A stretch of DNA of 64,000 bases from Acinetobacter tandoii DSM 14970 = CIP 107469 (GTDB lineage: Bacteria > Pseudomonadota > Gammaproteobacteria > Pseudomonadales > Moraxellaceae). Location: positions 11,146 to 75,145 of the forward strand of contig NZ_KE007367.1 of assembly GCF_000400735.1 (NCBI RefSeq), given 5' to 3'. Both the position numbers and the translations under genes were made by a program. Below the pieces are notes generated by a model that was given only the letters and a program-made list of their open reading frames with translations, did no database searches and was not told the origin of the DNA. Each line of letters opens with the position of its first letter. Positions within the stretch are counted from its first letter, which is position 1. This document shows positions 452-51,320 of this stretch, in pieces.

Positions 452-780
452 CATTAGCAGCAGGTGATCTATGCCACCGAGTCACGATCCAAAATAAAAC
501 CAGCACTTACGATGAAAACAACTACGAAACAGATCCAATCTGGACTGACTTCAAAAAGCTTTGGGCTAAGGTTGAGTTTTTATCAGTTAAAGACTCAATT
601 AATGCCAAGGCTGCTGGTTCACAAACTACAGCACGCTTAAAACTACGTAAACGTAGTGATATCACCACGGAAATGCGCGTGCTTTGGGATGGATACACCT
701 TTCAGATTGTTTCGCCGCCTAAGCCTGACAATGAGAACGGTAAGATCTACATGACGTTGGAGCTTGCAGTAATGGAGTAG
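448..780 (+). CDS. Phage head-tail joining (head closure) protein
   Basis: The product (110 residues from this start) opens 'MTLAAGDLCHRVTIQ' and continues with 'W.DFKKLWAKVEFLS', the typical pattern of the small beta-barrel head-tail joining family (SPP1 gp16-like, Pfam Phage_H_T_join). It closes the head and docks the tail. The ATG at 448 was preferred to the longer reading from 415 because it forms an ATGA overlap with the stop of the preceding gene and gives the usual N-terminus. A GGAG for the next gene lies across its stop. Confidence 0.85.
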   Translation: MTLAAGDLCHRVTIQNKTSTYDENNYETDPIWTDFKKLWAKVEFLSVKDSINAKAAGSQTTARLKLRKRSDITTEMRVLWDGYTFQIVSPPKPDNENGKIYMTLELAVME

Positions 781-783
781 GCT

Positions 784-1242
784 ATGGTTGTTGAGGTTGA
801 AATAACGGGGATGGGTGAAATTGAGCGAAAGCTCAGAGCCTTGGCTAATCCACGTTTAGCAAAAAATGCTGCAAGGCGTTCAGCGCGTAAAGCTATGGCA
901 ATTGTCCGTGATGCAGCACGTATGAATGCTAAAGGTATCGACAACAGGCTCACTGACGAAAAGATTTGGAAAAATATCGCAATTGCAGCAGGTAAATCGC
1001 GTGATGCGAACACAATTATGATGCGTGTAGGCGTGAGAGGCGGTGCATCATTTTCAAATCCAAATCCACCAAGTCTAAGTGGTGGCGATACTCGACATTG
1101 GCGCTGGATAGAGTTTGGATCGGCGCATAATCCACCTGTACCATTCATGCGACCCGCTTTAGAAAACAATATTCAGGCTGTGACTGATTCATTTGCACAA
1201 AACTTTAGTGCTGAACTCGATAAGGAACTTGCAAAACTATGA
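784..1242 (+). CDS. HK97 gp10-like tail completion protein
   Basis: The 152-residue product begins 'MVVEVEITGMGEIERKL' and has the Ala/Arg-rich helix and 'WIEFGSAHNPPVPFMRPAL' segment typical of the HK97 gp10 family, which completes the tail end at the neck. GGAG lies just upstream across the stop of the previous gene. It overlaps the next gene by ATGA at 1239-1242. Gene order (connector, joining protein, gp10, DUF3168) is the standard siphophage order. Confidence 0.85.
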   Translation: MVVEVEITGMGEIERKLRALANPRLAKNAARRSARKAMAIVRDAARMNAKGIDNRLTDEKIWKNIAIAAGKSRDANTIMMRVGVRGGASFSNPNPPSLSGGDTRHWRWIEFGSAHNPPVPFMRPALENNIQAVTDSFAQNFSAELDKELAKL

Positions 1243-1610
1243 ATATTCTCCCTGTAGTTCCAACGCTAAGAGCAGATCCAAATGTCACAGCGTTATTGGG
1301 AAATAATCCTTTAAAAGTTTTTGAAGATATTGCTCCCACTGGTACTGCATTTCCTTATGCAGTTTGGTCGGTTGTGACTGCAAATCCTGAAAACAACTTG
1401 GACTGTGCAGCAAATATTGATCATGTGTCTTTCCAGATTGTTGTTTATGACAGCAATCAAAAGCGAGCTTACGATATTCGAGCAGCCATTCGTACTTCGC
1501 TTGAACCATATTGTTATGTGACTAGTATTCACCCCAACCATTTTGAGCGAATTCTCGATACCAATGTTTTTGGACGTGGGTTTGATGCGAATTGGTGGTT
1601 GGATCGATAG
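1239..1610 (+). CDS. Tail terminator-like protein, DUF3168 family
   Basis: The product is 123 residues. The 'PLKVFEDIAPTGTAFPYAVWS' segment and the following 'D.VSFQIVVYDSNQKRAYDIRAAIRTSL' match DUF3168 (gp17-like tail completion) proteins, which cap the tail tube at the head side. It is coupled to the upstream gene by an ATGA overlap. A terminator follows within 55 bases of its stop, ending this connector block before the inserted antirepressor cassette. Confidence 0.82.
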   Translation: MNILPVVPTLRADPNVTALLGNNPLKVFEDIAPTGTAFPYAVWSVVTANPENNLDCAANIDHVSFQIVVYDSNQKRAYDIRAAIRTSLEPYCYVTSIHPNHFERILDTNVFGRGFDANWWLDR

Positions 1611-1662
1611 ATATTCAAAATAGGAAAACTGGACAAATCGCTATTTTTTTCGATGAAAGAAT

Positions 1663-1690
1663 AAGCCTTACAGAAATGTAGGGCTTTTTT
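1663..1690 (+). terminator. Rho-independent terminator after the connector genes
   Basis: AAGCC (1663-1667) pairs with GGCTT (1682-1686); an inner TAC/GTA extends the stem around a six-base loop, and a T run follows to 1690. It separates the connector genes from the antirepressor cassette. Confidence 0.75.
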
Positions 1691-1712
1691 AATGCCCGCA
1701 ATTTGGGCAAAC

Positions 1713-1789
1713 CACTGGCTAGGTTGATCCCCGAAAGGAAGATGGTCGTTTCGACTATTCATTGCATCTTCTTGCCAGTGTTTTTTTTT
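1713..1789 (+). ncRNA. Candidate C4-like antisense RNA controlling the AntA gene
   Basis: The segment folds as nested stems. CACTGGC (1713-1719) pairs with GCCAGTG (1774-1780), GAAGATG (1738-1744) pairs with CATCTTC (1765-1771), and GTCG (1745-1748) pairs with CGAC (1752-1755); nine T follow at 1781-1789. The unpaired ATTCATTG (1757-1764) is fully complementary to CAATGAAT (1810-1817), which spans the AntA start codon. TTGATC (1724-1729) is complementary to GATCAA (1807-1812). In P1/P7 the C4 RNA, about 77 nt, sits upstream of ant and blocks translation in this way. Assignment to C4 is inference; a covariance search with the Rfam C4 model would settle it. Confidence 0.62.
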
Positions 1790-1811
1790 AATGAGTAGTC
1801 GGAGCAGATCA

Positions 1812-2342
1812 ATGAATGCAGCAGTAAAGATTGAAGGTGGAACTCCGTTTATAGAAGTAGAATTAAATGGGAAGGTTCAACTGGGTGTGAATGCGCGTGA
1901 TTTACATAGAATGCTTGAAAGTAAGCAAGACTTTTCTACTTGGATAAAGCGCCGTATTGCACAGTGCGGTTTTGAAGAGAATTATGATTTTATCCTGATC
2001 CACCAAAAAGTGGAGCAGGTGTCTGGTGCAAAACATTTGGTTGAATACATTATTTCAGTAGATATGACTAAGCATCTAGGAATGATGGAGCGCAACCATA
2101 AAGGTCATGAGATTCGAAAATACTACATTGAACAAGAGGAAATGGCGCGCCACTTGAAAGATGGCATCCAATTGCAAATTGGAAAAATCACAGCTCAAGT
2201 AGAAGTCATTACTCAGTCACTATCTATTGCAGGACGCTTTCTTTCAGTTAATGGAAAGCAAACAAAACCAGCATTATTAAAAGAACTGGATGAGCTAATT
2301 AATCAGGCTCAACCAAGTTTGGATTTTGAGGGTGGAATTTGA
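1812..2342 (+). CDS. AntA-type phage antirepressor
   Basis: The product from this start is 176 residues. Its N-terminal half is an AntA/AntB domain: 'VNARDLHRMLESKQDFSTWIKRRI' followed by 'YDFILIHQKVE' and the 'ISVDMTKHLGMMERNHKGHEIRKYYIE' block. Such proteins bind and disable the prophage repressor and so promote induction. The ATG at 1812 has GGAG at 1801-1804 with seven bases between; an earlier in-frame ATG at 1791 follows a T run and has no such site. The gene stands between two terminators inside the head-tail operon, so it is a separately expressed cargo gene. The upstream RNA element probably represses its translation. Confidence 0.85.
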   Translation: MNAAVKIEGGTPFIEVELNGKVQLGVNARDLHRMLESKQDFSTWIKRRIAQCGFEENYDFILIHQKVEQVSGAKHLVEYIISVDMTKHLGMMERNHKGHEIRKYYIEQEEMARHLKDGIQLQIGKITAQVEVITQSLSIAGRFLSVNGKQTKPALLKELDELINQAQPSLDFEGGI

Positions 2343-2400
2343 AATGCGACCCTTTTAAATTCCGCATCTCAAATGCTGAAATTAGAAGTTTAAAACCAAT

Positions 2401-2422
2401 GCCACCTTCGGGTGGCTTTTTT
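2401..2422 (+). terminator. Rho-independent terminator after the AntA antirepressor
   Basis: GCCACC (2401-2406), TTCG loop, GGTGGC (2411-2416) and six T form a textbook terminator that closes the antirepressor cassette 27 bases before the tail tube gene. Confidence 0.9.
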
Positions 2423-2448
2423 ATGCCTAAAAAGAGGAGTAGCTACTC

Positions 2449-2916
2449 ATGGCACGTATTAAAGCGCAACGTACGCAAGTATTTGCTGTTATCGCAGGTG
2501 CAGTTGTACGCTTCAGTTGCCCTAAAGCATTTACTTTTGGAGATGATTCCTTTTCTAAGATTGATGCAACTTGCTTGGATTCTGACACGAAGGATTATGA
2601 GCGCGGTTTACGAGATCCTGGTGAAGGTTCCATTCAGATTGACCTAGATGATGAAAACGCAAGCCATTTACAGCTTATCGCGTTAGCTGATTCTGGTGAA
2701 AAGGTTGAGTGGTATGTTGGTTCCAGTCATAACCAAACACCGCCAACTTATGATGTTACGACAGGTATTGATCTACCTGAAACACGAATTTGGTGGTCTT
2801 TCCAAGGCTACTTAAACCCAGCAGCACCAACCGTTGAACAGGACTCATTAATTGGTTATACCTTCACCTTGGTACGTACATCCGCTGTCATCACAACCCC
2901 GCGAGTGATTCCATAA
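2449..2916 (+). CDS. Major tail tube protein
   Basis: The 155-residue product opens 'MARIKAQRTQVFAV' and has an acidic, beta-rich body with 'GLRDPGEGSIQIDLDDE', 'WYVGSS' and 'WWSFQGYLNPAAPTVEQDSL', the layout of siphophage tail tube subunits that stack as rings around the tape measure. GAGGAG precedes the ATG. The stop overlaps the next start (TAATG), so it is coupled to the tail chaperone gene. Position between connectors and the G/GT chaperone is standard. Confidence 0.82.
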   Translation: MARIKAQRTQVFAVIAGAVVRFSCPKAFTFGDDSFSKIDATCLDSDTKDYERGLRDPGEGSIQIDLDDENASHLQLIALADSGEKVEWYVGSSHNQTPPTYDVTTGIDLPETRIWWSFQGYLNPAAPTVEQDSLIGYTFTLVRTSAVITTPRVIP

Positions 2917-3446
2917 TGGCTAAAACAAATCTTAAAGCCCTTCGAAAAGTTACCCAAAGTGGTGCGCCAATTGAGCGAACAGTAACATGGAAGGTATTTG
3001 CTACAGAAGAGAACCTTGAAGACCTTAAAGAGCTTACGAGTAAATCGGAGATGACTGTCGGTGATGAAGTTGAACTTGAAGGACAGGTCTTTATTAAGCG
3101 ACTTTCATTCATTGCTCAGCAAGAAGTAGCAAAGGCTTTTGAATGGGATGTCGTGACAAACCCAGATGGCCCAGTGTTAAAAGAAATCAATGGTAGTCGT
3201 TTGGTCGCTTCACGTTTGATTGGTTCGATTTGTGAAGATGGGAAAGGAACGCCGTTTTTCACTTCACTTACTGATGTATATACTTCTGATCCAAAGTTCA
3301 TTGATGCGGTATATCAAGAAGCTGACAAGGTGAACAACTTTACGGGAAAGTCACCGAAGAAGAATTCGAGCGAAATGAATTCTGGTGCGAACTTGTCCTC
3401 AACGGAATCGGTGGAAGTACCATCGAAGAAGCGCAAGCAAACATAA
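2916..3446 (+). CDS. Tail assembly chaperone, gpG-like (zero-frame product)
   Basis: The zero-frame product is 176 residues, with a lysine-rich beginning, a beta-rich middle and a low-complexity Ser/Lys end after residue 145. In lambda, gpG and its frameshifted form gpGT load onto the tape measure protein and guide tail assembly. Here a GGGAAAG heptamer at 3344-3350 lies at codons 143-145 in the phase G GGA AAG, exactly as in lambda. The polar end after the slip site looks like read-through of the overlapping T frame. The tape measure gene lies downstream beyond the inserted immunity and cargo genes. Confidence 0.82.
   Translation: MAKTNLKALRKVTQSGAPIERTVTWKVFATEENLEDLKELTSKSEMTVGDEVELEGQVFIKRLSFIAQQEVAKAFEWDVVTNPDGPVLKEINGSRLVASRLIGSICEDGKGTPFFTSLTDVYTSDPKFIDAVYQEADKVNNFTGKSPKKNSSEMNSGANLSSTESVEVPSKKRKQT
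3344..3350 (+). promoter_or_regulatory. Programmed -1 frameshift site G GGA AAG
   Basis: In the gpG-like frame the codons are ACG GGA AAG from 3342, so the heptamer GGGAAAG is in the slippery phase. Shifting back one base gives GGG AAA and continues with GTC from 3350 into a long open frame. This is the same heptamer used by lambda G/T. Confidence 0.85.
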
Positions 3447-3661
3447 ACAATGCTGAACTAAACATTTGGAGAGCCTACCGTAAAAAGTATGGCTCTTTAT
3501 TTTTTGGGCGTAGGCTCGAACATGCTTTTGGTAACTGGACAGCGCATTACACTAGCTTGAAGATTCACAAGGAAGTAGATCCTTATGACTTCATGCCAAA
3601 TGAACAGCGTAAGGAAATATCTCTTGAAGAATATATGGAAGCTAATTTTGGTACTGGGTGA
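3350..3661 (+). CDS. Tail assembly chaperone gpT part, read by -1 frameshift
   Basis: From 3350 the -1 frame stays open for 103 codons to TGA at 3659-3661. It reads 'EEEFERNEFWCELVLNG', then 'IEEAQANINNAELNIWRAYRKKYGSL' and a Trp/Tyr-rich end, the pattern of gpT-type chaperone extensions (DUF4035-like). Joined at the slip site it would give a fusion of about 248 residues (145 plus 103). No ATG near its start suggests separate initiation, so frameshifting is the likely route. The next gene points the other way, ending 7 bases past this stop. Confidence 0.8.
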   Translation, partial: VTEEEFERNEFWCELVLNGIGGSTIEEAQANINNAELNIWRAYRKKYGSLFFGRRLEHAFGNWTAHYTSLKIHKEVDPYDFMPNEQRKEISLEEYMEANFGTG

Positions 3662-3667
3662 AGCACC

Positions 3668-4081
3668 TTAGGGTGCTTTATTGCTTTCAGGGATATCTAA
3701 AAATTGCAAAGATTTATATGTCTCCGCGTTGCTCTTTTTCAATCTATGCATTTCTGCTTTCAATACTTTATTCACTTGAAGTCGATGCTCTAAAAATTGA
3801 ATCATTTCAGGGTTTTTTGTTTTTGAAAGTGAATCCTCGATTTGAGATATAGCTTCATCGTAATTGCTTTCCAAGCCAGCACAATATGTTGCAAGAAACA
3901 TATGTAGATTTTTTTCAAAAAAATCGTGGTCGTAATTCTTTTTTTCAAAAGATTCTTCTAAGCGAGCAATAATTTCAGCATTAATTGAGCGGTTCTGCTC
4001 TTTGGCGGAATTCATTACCTTGTCCCTTAGGTCTTCAGGCCATCGCAATTTATATTGAGGCTCTTTCTGGTTTTCGCTCAT
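3668..4081 (-). CDS. Mnt/Arc-family ribbon-helix-helix repressor
   Basis: The 137-residue product begins with a ribbon-helix-helix domain: 'PQYKLRWPEDLRDKVMNSAKEQNRSINAEIIARLEESF', which closely follows the Arc/Mnt pattern (beta strand with alternating polar residues, then two helices around 'NRSINAEI'). The rest is helical and probably a coiled coil, as in Mnt, where it drives tetramer formation. It is transcribed away from the Arc-like and KilA-N genes and has a good promoter in the shared control region (TTGTCA, 17 bases, TATTAT on the minus strand). By analogy with P22 immI it would repress the antirepressor promoter during lysogeny. At 137 residues it is longer than P22 Mnt (about 82). 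Confidence 0.8.
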   Translation of the reverse strand: MSENQKEPQYKLRWPEDLRDKVMNSAKEQNRSINAEIIARLEESFEKKNYDHDFFEKNLHMFLATYCAGLESNYDEAISQIEDSLSKTKNPEMIQFLEHRLQVNKVLKAEMHRLKKSNAETYKSLQFLDIPESNKAP

Positions 4082-4114
4082 TTGGAGTGATTACACCTTA
4101 AAGTTGATAAATTT

Positions 4115-4186
4115 ATAATAAAGTACCTCTATGATGTTGACAATGACATAAGAGAGGTACATTATAAAACGTACCTAAATGATGTT
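4115..4186. promoter_or_regulatory. Divergent promoters with repeated GTACCT operators (immI-like)
   Basis: Minus-strand promoter: TTGTCA (4143-4138), 17 bases, TATTAT (4120-4115). Plus-strand promoter: TTGACA (4137-4142), 17 bases, CATTAT (4160-4165). The two -35 boxes overlap. Operator-like repeats are GTACCTCTATGATGTT (4123-4138) and GTACCTAAATGATGTT (4171-4186), 14 of 16 identical, plus an inverted copy AGAGAGGTAC (4151-4160). One copy lies in each promoter spacer and the third just past the plus -10, well placed for repression of both directions. Confidence 0.75.
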
Positions 4187-4197
4187 AAGGAGATACC

Positions 4198-4356
4198 ATG
4201 AGAGTACAACGAGGTCAGCAATACAAAATGCGGTTTTTAGACAACAAAGACCATGAAAAGCTAAAACTGAAAGGTGAGCAGGAAGATCGGTCGATTAATT
4301 ATTTAATTAATCAAGCCATTAAAGAGTTTTTAAATAAAGAGAGTGCGAAAGCATGA
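4198..4356 (+). CDS. Arc-like small ribbon-helix-helix repressor
   Basis: The 52-residue product reads 'GQQYKMRFLDNKDHEKLKLKGEQED' and then 'RSINYLINQAIKEFLNKE', a complete Arc-type ribbon-helix-helix fold and almost the same length as P22 Arc (53). AAGGAG lies a few bases before the ATG. It is the first gene of the transcript from the TTGACA promoter and precedes the KilA-N antirepressor, as arc precedes ant in P22. By analogy it would damp expression of the antirepressor and of its own promoter. It is too short for many gene finders. Confidence 0.78.
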   Translation: MRVQRGQQYKMRFLDNKDHEKLKLKGEQEDRSINYLINQAIKEFLNKESAKA

Positions 4357-4412
4357 AATCAACAGACAACAAAAAAGCCCCTAACTATCTTGGCGGATAC
4401 GGAGCTTGATTG

Positions 4413-4451
4413 ATGTCAAATCACAGTGAGCATTTAACATGTCTAATTTAA
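4413..4451 (+). CDS. Possible 12-codon leader peptide overlapping the KilA-N start
   Basis: ATG at 4413 follows GGAG (4401-4404) with eight bases between. Its frame runs twelve codons and stops with TAA at 4449-4451, thirteen bases past the first base of the KilA-N gene start. The KilA-N ATG itself has only a weak site (GTGAG). This could couple translation, as icd does for ant in P1, but a frame this short may be chance. Confidence 0.3.
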   Translation: MSNHSEHLTCLI

Positions 4452-5344
4452 CACAAAATTTCTTAAACCCAAACAATCAGCCTTTAGTTATTGGTGAATT
4501 TACTATTCGTCAAGATGATGAAGGGCGTTATTGCTTGAATGATTTCCATAAAGCGAGCGGTGGTCTGGATAAGCACTCGCCATTCCGTTTTATGCGTATA
4601 GAACAAACTAAGGAACTTATTGAGGAAATTGAGAAATATACTCAAACACCAGAAATGGTGCTTGGTGAAAATTCTCAAACCTCAAATATGAGGAGTGCTG
4701 CAAAAGTTATCCATGGTGGTAACAATCGAGGTACTTACGTTGTCAAAGAGCTTGTCTATTCATACGCCATGTGGATTTCTGCAAAATTCCATTTAATGGT
4801 GATTCGTGCATACGACTCATTGGTGATGCAATGGAAAATTAATGATCGCCAATCCATCTCACCAGAACAGTGTGGAATTTTATACAACATTGTGCATACA
4901 CGCGCAGGTGGCAATCAAAGCCTAATCAAACAAATGTGGAGTCGTTTAAAAAACCATTTTAAATATTCTGCAAGCTATCGTGAGTTACGTGCGATTCATT
5001 TTGAAGATGCTAAACACTACTTAGAGGTAATGGACTTAAAGGGTAATACTGGAAAGCATGAATCTAAAACCCCATCATCTTCGAACCGCTTGGAAGACCT
5101 TGCCTACAATGTTTCTATGAATATGCTATGGGCGAGTGGTTGGTGGCTATGCTACCGAGATGCTATTCAATTGCTTAATCCTCAAATGTTTTCTGAAATA
5201 GAAGATCGCTTTAAAAGTGGGTCTACTTATGCATGCCTAATACTAGGTGGAGAAAAAAGCAAAGAAACAAATGCACGTATTGCAGGGGTTTTTCCATTTA
5301 ACGTACCAGTACGAGACCGTTGCGCATTGTTGCGGTATAAGTGA
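4439..5344 (+). CDS. KilA-N domain phage antirepressor
   Basis: The 301-residue product has a KilA-N domain over about residues 20-130: 'IRQDDEGRYCLNDFHKASGG', then 'HGGNNRGTYVVKELVYSYAMWIS' and 'RAYDSLV'. A second domain follows ('SPEQCGILYNIVHTRAGGN' to 'HYLEVM'), resembling ORF6C/P22AR-type C-terminal domains of antirepressors. P22 Ant is about 300 residues. Such proteins bind the prophage repressor and trigger induction. It lies in an Arc-like plus antirepressor operon opposite a Mnt-like gene. A terminator follows 18 bases past the stop. Assignment of the second domain is less certain than the first. Confidence 0.82.
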   Translation: MSNLTQNFLNPNNQPLVIGEFTIRQDDEGRYCLNDFHKASGGLDKHSPFRFMRIEQTKELIEEIEKYTQTPEMVLGENSQTSNMRSAAKVIHGGNNRGTYVVKELVYSYAMWISAKFHLMVIRAYDSLVMQWKINDRQSISPEQCGILYNIVHTRAGGNQSLIKQMWSRLKNHFKYSASYRELRAIHFEDAKHYLEVMDLKGNTGKHESKTPSSSNRLEDLAYNVSMNMLWASGWWLCYRDAIQLLNPQMFSEIEDRFKSGSTYACLILGGEKSKETNARIAGVFPFNVPVRDRCALLRYK

Positions 5345-5362
5345 AAAACATTATTAAGACAG

Positions 5363-5385
5363 CCTCCTTCGGGAGGTTTCTTTTT
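5363..5385 (+). terminator. Rho-independent terminator after the KilA-N gene
   Basis: CCTCC (5363-5367), TTCG loop and GGAGG (5372-5376) are followed by TTTCTTTTT. It closes the immunity operon before the lipoprotein gene. Confidence 0.88.
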
Positions 5386-5422
5386 GACCAAATAATTAGT
5401 ATCTTACCCTTGCTTATAAAAA
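5375..5422 (+). repeat. Cargo-gene leader block, copy A
   Basis: This 48-base block starts in the terminator arm, contains TTTTTGACC, AATTAGTAT and TTATAAAAA, and lies just before the lipoprotein ribosome site. It matches copy B at 5873-5920 at 39 of 48 positions without gaps. It probably holds the gene's promoter, although TTGACC and TTATAA are 24 bases apart, too far for a standard sigma-70 pair. Confidence 0.7.
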
Positions 5423-5433
5423 GGGGTAACTTC

Positions 5434-5850
5434 ATGAAAAAATTATTAGTTTTGGCAGCAGTTGGGCTTGGGTTGTCATTAAGTGGCTGTGCGGTGCGAG
5501 TTGCGGATTTAACTGTAGCAAGTACGAAGAACTACAATTTAAACTCTAATCAGTTTGTGAAAGGTGAGCGAGTTTCCGCGGATGACTCAGTTCCAGTTAT
5601 TTTATTCCCGCTTGGCATTCCTGATATGAAAACAGCTATGGACAAGGCAATTGAAAAAAATAACTGTTCAGTAGCTTTAACTGATGTGGTCATTACTAGT
5701 CTTAATTATGCATTTTTAGTTGGTAAAATTGGGTATCGTGTTGAAGGGAATCAAGTTATCGATACCAATCAACCTAATTGTGGAAAAAGTAGAAATTTAG
5801 CTGATTTGAGCAATGAACGACCTTTGATTTTATCAAAGCCAGCATCATAA
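5434..5850 (+). CDS. Phage cargo lipoprotein
   Basis: From this ATG the product is 138 residues with a lipoprotein signal: 'MKKLLVLAAVGLGLSLSGC' and Cys at 19. The mature part has 'VADLTVASTKN' and 'VILFPLGIPDMKTAMDKAIEKNNC'. Small phage lipoproteins of this build are often made in the lysogen and can alter the cell surface or block superinfection; that role is inference here. The ATG at 5434 follows AAGGGG; an upstream in-frame start at 5341 would add residues before the signal peptide and has no support. It has its own terminator on each side. Confidence 0.75.
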   Translation: MKKLLVLAAVGLGLSLSGCAVRVADLTVASTKNYNLNSNQFVKGERVSADDSVPVILFPLGIPDMKTAMDKAIEKNNCSVALTDVVITSLNYAFLVGKIGYRVEGNQVIDTNQPNCGKSRNLADLSNERPLILSKPAS

Positions 5851-5857
5851 GAAGAGC

Positions 5858-5885
5858 AACCGCCTACATGGCGGTTTCTTTTTGA
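5858..5885 (+). terminator. Rho-independent terminator after the lipoprotein gene
   Basis: AACCGCC (5858-5864) pairs with GGCGGTT (5870-5876) around TACAT, followed by TCTTTTT. Confidence 0.87.
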
Positions 5886-5920
5886 CCGAAGAATTAGTAT
5901 GTTGTCTTGAATTATAAAAA
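5873..5920 (+). repeat. Cargo-gene leader block, copy B
   Basis: Second copy of the 48-base leader found at 5375-5422, again starting in a terminator arm and ending just before a ribosome site (GAGGG at 5923-5927). The shared TTTTTGACC, AATTAGTAT and TTATAAAAA parts suggest a common regulatory element. Confidence 0.7.
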
Positions 5921-5932
5921 TTGAGGGCAATC

Positions 5933-6460
5933 ATGCAGAAAATTTTAATACTTGTGCTGTCTCTATTGAACACTGTAACTTTTGCAAATGAAATATATGC
6001 AATAAAAGATGAGACTGGGGCGACATATTTCTCAGCCAATCCACCCAAAGATCCAAATCACACAATAGAAAAAGTCGAGTCGTATAAATCTTCTCCACTA
6101 TTGGATTGGAATATTAATTGTACTAAAGATAAATTTAATGGAAAGAAAATTTGTTCATTATCAAAGTATCACAGTGATTTGATGGTCAATATTATTAATG
6201 GAAAATACAGTGTTTATATTGGAAGGGATCATTATCCAAATTCACAAAGTGCAATAAAGATTGATGAAAATACACCAATTTATGGGGATGAAGGGTTAAG
6301 TCAAACACCTCAAAAAGCTATTGAGCAAATGAAAAAAGGTAAGGTCGCTTATACCCGATACAAAGAATGGCCATATGAATACAACCAAGACGGTGAAACC
6401 GATTTAACAGGTTTTTCTGAAAAATTTAGTGAAATGTTAGAGAATTACAAGAAGCTCTAA
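5933..6460 (+). CDS. Exported cargo protein of unknown function
   Basis: The product is 175 residues and starts with a signal peptide ('MQKILILVLSLLNTVTFANE'), so it is likely exported to the periplasm. The mature part has a 'WNINC...KICSL' pair of cysteines that may form a disulfide, and a C-terminal stretch rich in Tyr and acidic residues. No family is recognised. ATG at 5933 follows GAGGG; the TTG at 5921 is less likely. It is flanked by terminators and shares its leader with the lipoprotein gene, so the two form a pair of separately expressed cargo genes between the immunity region and the tape measure. Confidence 0.65.
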   Translation: MQKILILVLSLLNTVTFANEIYAIKDETGATYFSANPPKDPNHTIEKVESYKSSPLLDWNINCTKDKFNGKKICSLSKYHSDLMVNIINGKYSVYIGRDHYPNSQSAIKIDENTPIYGDEGLSQTPQKAIEQMKKGKVAYTRYKEWPYEYNQDGETDLTGFSEKFSEMLENYKKL

Positions 6461-6480
6461 CCAACCTATAAACACCCAAA

Positions 6481-6502
6481 CCTCGCAATAGCGGGGTTTT
6501 TT
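6481..6502 (+). terminator. Rho-independent terminator before the tape measure gene
   Basis: CCTCGC (6481-6486), AATA loop, GCGGGG (6491-6496) with one G-T pair, then six T. Confidence 0.85.
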
Positions 6503-6520
6503 ATTGCCTGAGGAAAAGTT

Positions 6521-9500
6521 ATGGCAGCAGCTTCACTGGGCAGACTAACCCTAGATTTAGTCGCAAAAATTGGTAACTTCATTGAGCCAATGACAAAGGC
6601 AGAGCGCCAAGCGCAAAAATCAGGTAAAGGAATTGCAGATAGCTTTAATGTGGCAACATTGGCAGCAACTGCATTTGGGGCTGTTGTAGCAGGCATGTCT
6701 ATTGGTGGTTTAGTAGCTTTTGCGGATCAAACCATCCAAACAGGAAGTGAAATAAAGAAATTTTCACAATTAGCAAATACTTCTTTTCGTGACTTTCAAT
6801 ACTACGCAAAAGGCGCTGAAACTGCAGGTATCTCAATGGAGTCCTTTGCGGACAAAATGAAAGACATGCAGGATCGTATTGGAGATTTTCAACAAACAGG
6901 TGGTGGACCATTAGCGGATTTCTTTACTAATATTGCACCATTGGTTGGGGTAACTATTCAACAATTCCAGAAACTATCAGGACCTCAGGCGCTACAGCTT
7001 TACTATGACTCCCTTAAGAAAGTTGGAGCCACTCAGAATGACATGAAGTTTTATATGGAGGCGATCATTTCTGATTCCTCTTTGCTTCTGCCATTATTAG
7101 AAAATGGTGGTGCAGGGTTTAAGAAATGGGGGGATGCTGCTGAACGTGCAAACGCAATTCTGTCAGATGAAATGGTTCAAAGCCTTGCATTAGCAAAAGA
7201 GAATGTACAGCTATTAAATTTACAATGGGAAGGTTTGCAAGCCACTTTTGTGAATGCTGTCGTGCCAGTGGTTCAAACTGTCTCAGACAACATGGGAGAT
7301 ATTAAGGCAGTAGCAGTTGCTGTTGCAGCTGCTATGGCGGTAAAGCTTGTGCCTACGGTGATTGCTACCAGTATTCAGTTAGCACAATTAACCGCATTTT
7401 CAGTCCGTGCAGGAATAGGCTTGGTTGGATTGTCTGGATCAATGGGCGCGCTGAGTGGAGCAATGGCTTTTCTTGGTGGTCCCGCTGGATTAGCGATGTT
7501 GGCTTTACAAGGTTTGGCTGCTGGGGCTGCATTCTTATACATGAAGAAATCTAGTGATTCATTAGACCCTTCTTTGAGCACCCAAGGCAAATCCATTGCT
7601 GATTTAACAGCAGAATATGAAAAGTTAGATGCCACACAAAAGCGTGTACTTACACGAAAAGCAACTGATGAACTTAATGAAGCCAATAAAGTTTATCGGG
7701 AACAAAAGAATGAGTTATTAGGGCTTATTGATGCTGTAACACGTAATTCACAAGTTTCTGAAAAAGAGCGAGGTGTGGCTGCGCAACTTTTTGAACAGTA
7801 TCGACAAGGTAAAATTAGTTCTAACGATTTGGCTACTGCCGTAAATAGCTTGGCTACTGTAAGCGATGCTGCGAAATCAAGTATTGATAGAAAGGCAGAG
7901 GCTGTTAGCAAAGAGTCAGATGCTGTCAATAATGCTAAGTCAATTCTCAATGTCTATAGCGGGAAGGTTAAAGAAAACACCAAGACCAATCGAGAAAATG
8001 CAAGATCGATATCAGAACAAGCCAGTGCATTATCAACACTTACTCAAAAGCAGCGAGAAGCCCTAAAGGATATTCAGGATCAAGTTGCTAAAGCTAATTA
8101 TATTGATGCGAATATGGCCGCAGGATGGAGTCGAGAAAAGGCTGAATACTATGCAGATTATCGTCAAAATGCTGGATTAAGTTTTACTGGCGCATCTTTA
8201 TCTGAATTAGAGAAGAAGCAAGTTGAAGCGGGTTATAAGCTTGAACAGCAAACCAAGGCACGGGAAGAGTCTGAAAAGAAAATTGAAGAGGCTAAGCGAA
8301 AACAGATTGAGCAAAGCCAAAAGCAATATTCTTATAGCGCTTCTGAGCTGAAGATGCTGCAAAAAGTGGCTGAAATTAATGCCAAGTTTGGATTGGATAA
8401 AATAGGCTCTAAATACGGTATTCCTGAGAATATGCTTGCGGCTGTCATGGCCCAAGAATCAAAAGGGAATATCAATGCTAAAAGCCAAACTGGTGCAATT
8501 GGACCATTTCAGACAACGAGTATCTATAGAAAACAACATGGTCTTTCAGTAAGTGACTCTTATGACGTATCAAAAGCGGCTGAAGCAGCTGCTAAAGATT
8601 TAGCTTCTTCTTATAAAATATTCGGAAATTGGACTGATGCTGTAACAGCTTACAATGCTGGTGTTAATGGAACTCAAAGCCTACTAGCAAAAGGTTTTAC
8701 TGGATCAGCGGCAAAAACCAAGGAGGCACTAGAGTATGCAGGAAAGGTTGATAAATGGTTAGTTGGTCTCAGCGGATCTTCTGAAAAAGGATCTAGTCTA
8801 TTAACAAAAGATGCTGCGACAGGATTAAAAGCATGGGGGGATTACTGGGCTGAAATCGAGGCAATCAAGGCTGAATCGCTGGAGCGCCAAAAGTCTGTTA
8901 CACAAACCTACTTCACTGCAGAAGAGCAAATGGCCGAAGACAATAAGGAGAAGTTACGCCTTATTAACGAAGCATTTGCAGGCGATAAAACTGCTATCGA
9001 GAAGTACACAAAACTTCAGCAGCTAGCCTATCAACAGGATGTTGAAAACTATCGCCGTGCCCAAAAGGAAAAGTTTGATGCCTCAAAAAATGACTTACTT
9101 GGACAATTGGCCAATGCTGAAGATGCAATTTCTCTATTTGGTGTTGCAAGCAAGTACGGCAAGAACTCACTTCAATATCAGAATGCAAGTTTAGGTATTA
9201 CTTCCAAGCAGGCTAAAGCTGCTGAATTTGATCGCTATACAAATAGCGTTAATCAAATTGGGAATGAATATGGTGCACCTGATGAAGTTGAAAAGCGCTA
9301 TGAGCTAATTGAGTTAGCCAAAAAACTTCATCTTGAAAACATGAAGATGATGGATGCGGAGTATTTTGCTAGCGCCAAGCAAATGTCTTTGGATCAATAT
9401 CAGCAACAGCTTGATATGTGGCAAGGGCTACTAGCCAACGGTCAAAACACCTTTTCCCAACTTACACAAGCTGTTCAAAGTAGTGCAGGGGAGCAATCTA

Positions 9501-51157: not shown

Positions 51158-51226
51158 TAGCCGCCCATTTTATCAAATGCTTTTTCGTGAATATATTTAC
51201 GAGTCGTTTGATTGAAATTGGTAAAA

Positions 51227-51320
51227 ATCCGCACATATATCGACACATTACTCTGGGTGCCCTAAAAGGGTGGAGAATGCGGATATATGGAGGCCTAACC
51301 CAAACTTTAAGGTAAAGAAA
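51227..51320 (+). promoter_or_regulatory. Structured 5' leader of rpsB
   Basis: ATCCGCA (51227-51233) pairs with TGCGGAT (51278-51284) and encloses CCCT (51260-51263) paired with AGGG (51267-51270). This long-range stem with an inner hairpin precedes the S2 start by 36 bases. Ribosomal protein S2 is known to regulate rpsB-tsf through its leader in gammaproteobacteria; this fold is a fair candidate site. Confidence 0.55.

Follow-up and report, generated by a model that had tools for sequence, protein, structure and literature searches.

C4 antisense RNAs control antirepressor synthesis in phage P1 (PMC8201110) and are reported to act as free, processed RNAs (PMC5320573). The two antisense segments of C4 are a', located in the P3 loop, and b', located in the 3' linker; both have an upstream and a downstream target, and Rfam holds a separate record of C4 targets, c4-a1b1 (RF03163). 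Maturation by RNase P to about 77 nt is a further hallmark of C4. Group 1 sRNAs of Acinetobacter baumannii AB5075 belong to the C4 family and are described as phage-derived, of antisense type and several per genome (PMC5320573). A positive control with nine C4 RNAs (seven of the genome studied here, P1 and P4; matches of at least 7 bases) recovers this design. Complements of the P3 loop lie both upstream and 29-35 bases downstream in 7/9 RNAs, the exceptions being L005 (upstream only) and L004 (downstream only). For the 3' linker, complements lie on both sides in 7/9 (upstream only in L003 and L005). These results agree with the a' and b' terms in PMC5320573 and with a1b1 of Rfam c4-a1b1. In phage P4 (L194), positions 1921-2206 hold a C4-family RNA (74.9 bits) beside overlapping matches to isrK (60.8 bits) and c4-a1b1, the latter at 44.1 bits and just under its cut-off of 46.7.

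The int-alpA family (RF02996) reportedly goes back to a 2017 paper by Weinberg and others. To judge from the family name, its RNAs presumably lie behind an integrase gene. The family is named without a function in a genome listing (PMC12370729). Neither a function for int-alpA RNAs nor an int-alpA-like RNA with a C4-like mechanism was found in the open-licence literature; earlier notice elsewhere is possible. The main text of PMC5320573 contains no occurrence of int-alpA, AntA, antirepressor or anti-repressor.

The locus described here lies in a 64,000-nucleotide stretch of the genome of Acinetobacter tandoii DSM 14970 (the window; contig NZ_KE007367.1, 11,146-75,145), where a putative RNA element sits directly 5' of an AntA antirepressor gene placed between a tail completion gene and a tail tube gene. 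The features are as follows.

1239-1610: tail completion gene (PF11367)
1663-1686, plus strand: terminator-like hairpin 3' of the tail completion gene
1693-1709, plus strand: imperfect palindrome TGCCCGCAATTTGGGCA just 5' of the element; several relatives also have a palindrome here
1712-1789, plus strand: putative int-alpA-like antisense RNA element with a P1/P2/P3 fold and a nine-T end
1713-1719, plus strand: 5' arm of P1, CACTGGC, pairing with 1774-1780 (pairing probability at least 0.97)
1722-1732, plus strand: P2 hairpin region, stem 1722-1723/1731-1732
1738-1771, plus strand: P3 hairpin GAAGATG/CATCTTC, seven pairs (1738-1744/1765-1771) and a 20-base loop with the antisense segment
1748-1764, plus strand: predicted antisense segment GTTTCGACTATTCATTG, 17 contiguous pairs with 1789-1805
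1774-1780, plus strand: 3' arm of P1, GCCAGTG, followed by nine T (1781-1789), a terminator-like end
1789-1805, plus strand: predicted target site 1 in the antA leader, complementary to 1748-1764 and including the Shine-Dalgarno GGAG (1801-1804)
1810-1817, plus strand: predicted target site 2, CAATGAAT in the start codon region, which complements 1757-1764
1812-2342, plus strand: AntA antirepressor gene, 176 aa (PF08346, E 6.2e-24)
2449-2916: tail tube gene (PF16460)

Of the original prediction, an RNA-like element with a nine-T end and the AntA gene behind it are borne out by these features. An alternative in-frame ATG for the gene at 1791 falls inside the T-tail of the RNA and lacks a Shine-Dalgarno; because of this, and because homologs align from 1812, the start is placed at 1812. 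The fold differs from the three nested stems first proposed. The shared fold computed from an alignment of relatives has an outer P1 (1714-1719/1774-1779, extendable to 1713/1780) around two side-by-side hairpins, P2 and P3; just two bases, 1772-1773, remain unpaired where P3 meets P1. In the relatives L199, L210 and L245, P1 has other letters and retains its pairing. The minimum-energy fold of the window sequence is not the family fold (-23.6 versus -16.6 kcal/mol for a family-type fold) and buries most of the antisense segment, leaving about 1760-1765 mostly open. The claim that ATTCATTG is unpaired thus holds for 1760-1764, whereas 1757-1759 are mostly paired. Taken as a single sequence, the element has unremarkable stability (z -1.76; 12/200 shuffles fold equally well). 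A consensus scan of 1560-1860, including the interval between the hairpin at 1663-1686 and the element, yields no consensus promoter. The palindrome at 1693-1709, which has other letters in several relatives (e.g. TGCCTGAAATTCAGGCA), may be an operator, part of a promoter or a processing signal. A match to isrJ (RF01393) at 1622-1687 (26.9 bits, below the cut-off of 37) is taken as the terminator of the tail gene.

The element was originally proposed to be a C4-like RNA, and an Rfam scan together with conservation of the complementary bases was proposed as the check. The bases are conserved in relatives, but a scan against all Rfam families finds no match to RF01695 (cut-off 45 bits) in 1600-1900 up to E 10. 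The best Rfam match over the element is int-alpA, at 25.3 bits against a cut-off of 35.8. Both models work on the source genome, because seven C4 RNAs above cut-off are detected elsewhere in it, along with one int-alpA RNA (L011, 37.8 bits). Five phage records match the element, all of them Acinetobacter phages, and the relative in phage Ab105-2phi reaches 33.5 bits for int-alpA. Three loci of the same class with CATGTTCA-type loops exceed the RF02996 cut-off, L085 (42.2 bits), L091 (37.6) and L094 (36.1), and L095-L102 of this class fall below it (32.0-35.6). A covariance model, R1, built from 15 relatives (alignment A3, close ones included and the window left out), scores the window at 96.6 bits (E 1.5e-23, the only match in 64 kb) and recovers 20/40 int-alpA loci (E<=0.0035) and 0/9 C4 loci. 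Because R1 finds the window and int-alpA loci but no C4, and because the consensus fold is P1, P2 and P3, the element is, as judged from its sequence, an int-alpA-like RNA: a divergent relative of RF02996 and not a member by the strict cut-off.

Comparison with the two families supports this placement. With int-alpA the element shares the P1/P2/P3 fold, the CUAG and CGAAA letters and a P3 loop matching two sites just downstream, the last a property found here rather than an Rfam criterion. It differs in its score and in an enlarged P3 with an inner hairpin. Its setting differs too, since it lies among tail genes before an antirepressor gene and is preceded by the tail completion gene, whereas the upstream ORFs of int-alpA loci are integrases in 32/49 scanned (alignment A5, which holds 49/111 upstream ORFs and leaves out antirepressor-type and most short-flank loci). 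With the C4 RNAs of P1 and P7 and the C4-family RNA of P4 it shares a size class, an outer stem with two hairpins and a P3 loop that complements the ribosome-binding site of the next gene, and with the RNA of P1 also the presumed control of an antirepressor. This similar length, position and loop are what favor a true C4 RNA, a reading that is now very unlikely. Unlike C4, the element has one antisense segment with two targets, both downstream. The second segment in the 3' linker is absent, and no target lies upstream (the longest match to the loop complement is 5 bases upstream and 8 downstream). Duplicated target sites are a theme shared with c4-a1b1, although those sites lie upstream of C4 and both window sites downstream of the RNA. 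The covariance scan, R1, the missing linker segment and the missing upstream target together lead to the rejection of C4 membership, which also separates the element from the Group 1 sRNAs of AB5075 (PMC5320573).

The complementarity to the antA leader is more extensive than first described. The exact 8-base match between ATTCATTG (1757-1764) and the start codon region (1810-1817) exists as originally claimed, yet such a match is not rare: some 8-base match between element and leader arises in 166/2000 dinucleotide-shuffled leaders. The strongest pairing, absent from the original prediction, joins 1748-1764 to 1789-1805 in 17 contiguous pairs (13 Watson-Crick and 4 G-U, -21.2 kcal/mol), spans the entire Shine-Dalgarno of antA and has a score equalled by 1/2000 shuffles. 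When 77 bases are compared with the next 37 at each of 2552 plus-strand positions, the element has the top score (15), tied with one place; that place lies at about 41526. The second pairing first proposed, a six-base match of 1724-1729 with 1807-1812, is probably chance: the computed duplex has only five pairs (-4.4 kcal/mol), P2 varies independently of the target and, across 79 int-alpA-type loci, P2 matches other leaders as well as its own (own 3.95 versus swapped 4.01; 3925/5000 permutations as good).

Relatives in the genus retain the pairing while its letters change. In a pattern-selected set of 35 records comprising six types, some of them one place fetched twice, the core of the site-1 pairing is 11/11 in every record. 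The RNA/target letters at site 1 are CGACTATTCAT/ATGAGTAGTCG in the window, TGACTGTTCAT/ATGAGCAGTCG in Ab105 (a two-sided change), CGACTACTCAT/ATGGGTAGTCG in L023 and TGACTGTTCAT/ATGGACAGTCG in L065. Site 2 retains 8/8 or 7/8 pairs across these types, and the letter just ahead of the ATG covaries with the RNA (A/T in the window, T/A in Ab105, C/G in L065). Because the search pattern itself demands such motifs, less selected sets carry more weight. An R1 search of 175 genomes of the genus gives 37 matches in 33 genomes, of which 30 loci were read and 29 with an ORF entered alignment A4; alignment A2 left out L031/L254 and L052, which have no neighboring target or are too different. Among the 30 loci, 27 pair with their leader over 8-18 bases and L260 over 6, while L254 (the same place as L031) and L255 retain the RNA without a neighboring target. 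Across 18 distinct loop types, the score is 10.8 with the own leader versus 7.5 with swapped leaders (0/20,000 permutations equal). In G047 (L211, L256), matched one-base losses in RNA and target leave a nine-base pairing in place, and in L257 the loop and both sites read CATATTCA/TGAATATG versus CATGTTCA/TGAACATG in its neighbors. The proteins behind the 29 loci, counted per family, are AntA (14), P22_AR_N (5), Rha (4) and KilA-N (4). P2 occurs in a few fixed versions (e.g. CTGATCCCC, CGACGGTTC and GTAGCTCCC), which are swapped between RNAs independently of loop and target.

Computed duplex energies give a less uniform picture. For 10 loops, the own target ranks first for 5 (those of the window, Ab105, L211, L206 and L205); in 4 cases it comes second and in 1 third, so the types cannot all be told apart by duplex energy alone. 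Those of the window and Ab105 can, reaching -14.8 and -15.3 with their own targets and -10.2 and -10.4 across. That the RNA has switched its main target to messages of other phages or of the host, with the adjoining match a leftover, is an improbable reading to which the RNAs without a neighboring target lend some support. Against it, local matches are kept by compensatory change, and the 16-base target pattern occurs without mismatch in its own genome only at antA and once more with two mismatches.

A survey starting from the AntA protein avoids choosing loci by their RNA. An AntA query has matches in 29 of the same 175 genomes, and 30 places were read together with the 120 bases 5' of each. 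Element-type RNAs precede the start in 14/20 close homologs (58-100% identity); four of the remaining six carry another hairpin RNA and two (L212, L219) carry neither. No element-type RNA is seen before the 10 distant homologs (35-46%), some of whose leaders are only partly in view because the match starts inside the gene. The other hairpin, found before the antA homologs L205, L230, L217 and L216 (genomes G120, G014 and G026), is a simpler terminator hairpin with a loop, CTCGTTACC (TTCGTTACC in L216), complementary to GGTAACGAG at the Shine-Dalgarno. Its exact pattern occurs at three places in 2/175 genomes, and in G026 (L254) and G014 an int-alpA-like RNA lies upstream of it. From these letters, the simpler hairpin looks like an independent solution to the task of the int-alpA-like RNA.

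The coupling of loop and leader extends to the int-alpA family at large. RF02996 loci were sampled in 175 genomes belonging to the genus and in 398 belonging to the phylum (presumably Proteobacteria), giving 121 distinct matches. Of these, 120 were taken as loci (G106:C1:1104027 was left out), and six more were dropped for parsing (L173, L157, L168, L177, L181, L192) and one because it is cut off (L125), which leaves 113 loci with 111 distinct loop-plus-leader pairs and 79 distinct loops. Each P3 loop was compared with the 38 bases behind P1, site 1 being 3-18 and site 2 15-38 bases behind. The longest Watson-Crick match is 5.80 with the own leader versus 4.20 with swapped leaders, and the difference holds for site 1 alone (5.39 versus 3.63) and site 2 alone (4.90 versus 3.87), with 0/20,000 permutations equal in each case. 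At least 5 matched bases are present at site 1 in 64/79 loops (swapped 18%) and at site 2 in 42/79 (swapped 21%). Coding sequence 40-70 bases behind shows no such coupling (3.67 versus 3.61; 5730/20,000 as good), and four upstream stretches show no clear excess (551 to 8693 of 10,000 as good), the lowest value being a weak hint confined to -170 to -130. The result holds with 24 loops differing by at least 4 edits and with the genus removed (66 loops), both of which reduce relatedness and do not remove it. The match is therefore specific to the leader beside each loop and more than a general anti-Shine-Dalgarno.

These results bear on the notion that the element is a plain intrinsic terminator of the tail operon, its complementarity arising by chance or forced by a shared Shine-Dalgarno-like sequence. 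P1 followed by nine T is indeed terminator-like. A separate terminator-like hairpin is already present at 1663-1686, however, and the coupling of each loop to its target, at site 1 before the Shine-Dalgarno too, greatly exceeds that of swapped partners; with compensatory changes and permutation results likewise against it, the plain terminator is highly improbable.

There is moderate support for a tendency of site 2 to occupy the loop of a small hairpin in the mRNA. A stem score of at least 4 is found in 73/96 loci (mean 48.6 and largest 66 in 100 shuffle rounds), at least 5 in 37 (shuffle largest 31) and at least 6 in 13 (mean 5.8, largest 16). The genes behind int-alpA loci are mostly unnamed, with Pfam matches totaling at most 19 of 97 scanned (alignment A1, 97/112 predicted ORFs, with 15 short or doubtful ones left out).

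The element is probably a small antisense RNA of C4-like design that would block antirepressor translation in the lysogen. The C4-like working first proposed gains support in this form, because the P3 loop complements the Shine-Dalgarno and start codon sites, because relatives keep these matches while the letters change and because the P3 loop of C4 RNAs behaves alike in the positive control. Most transcripts would stop at the nine-T end, freeing an RNA of about 77 nt, and a few would read through into antA. The P3 loop of the freed RNA might then pair with the leader of antA and exclude ribosomes, the open part of the loop (about 1760-1765) likely making first contact before the small inner hairpin is displaced. 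The antirepressor would thereby be kept off and the prophage would stay dormant; a superinfecting phage that carries the same target would have its antA silenced as well. Several observations count against this scheme: the lack of a consensus promoter, the 6/20 close and 10 distant AntA homologs without the RNA, the minimum-energy fold that hides most of the antisense segment, the loci L254 and L255 without a neighboring target, the many int-alpA loci without a clear T-tract, and the 5/10 loops for which another target outranks their own.

An element that acts in cis, on the transcript it belongs to, is a serious though less likely rival to an antisense RNA. Here the P3 loop would pair with its own leader as a pseudoknot, or the terminator would attenuate transcription, and no free RNA would matter. 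Since the RNA and its two sites share a strand and span about 105 bases, every read-through transcript contains them all, and several int-alpA loci have no clear T-tract. By a rough count a clear T-tract is missing in 85/106 int-alpA loci, and because so many lack one, release by a terminator cannot be general in the family. Against cis action, L254 and L255 keep the RNA without a neighboring target, which fits action in trans or decay, and the RNA closest to the element in design, C4, reportedly acts as a free processed molecule (PMC5320573).

Beyond this locus, it is rather likely that int-alpA-type RNAs make up, next to C4 and distinct from it, a second class of immunity antisense RNA that is widespread in mobile elements. 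An exchangeable P3 loop would read twin downstream sites, of which the second mostly falls on the Shine-Dalgarno or start codon and frequently sits within a small mRNA hairpin. This loop would silence the first gene behind the integrase in genomic islands or the antirepressor in Acinetobacter-type prophages, with loop and targets co-evolving into immunity types. The C4-like mechanism is already known; an int-alpA-like RNA doing likewise is the new part, within the open-licence literature searched. Translation block by loop pairing gives a testable function to a widespread RNA family that has none in that literature. The genes found in the genus suggest that one exchangeable RNA module would silence unrelated antirepressor families (AntA, Rha, P22-type and KilA-N) in its prophages. 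Loop and target types might foretell, for a given incoming phage, which resident prophages are able to silence its antirepressor, with bearing on induction and superinfection.

Elsewhere in the window, a second immunity-like module lies among the tail genes at 3668-5344, where an Arc-like repressor gene on the minus strand accompanies a KilA-N antirepressor gene. Positions 51212-51299 hold a t44 RNA (RF00127, 69.9 bits), the window's only Rfam match above cut-off. At 1-95, the 9-base unit GAGCAGCCA is repeated perfectly 10.6 times and encodes a Glu-Gln-Pro repeat.
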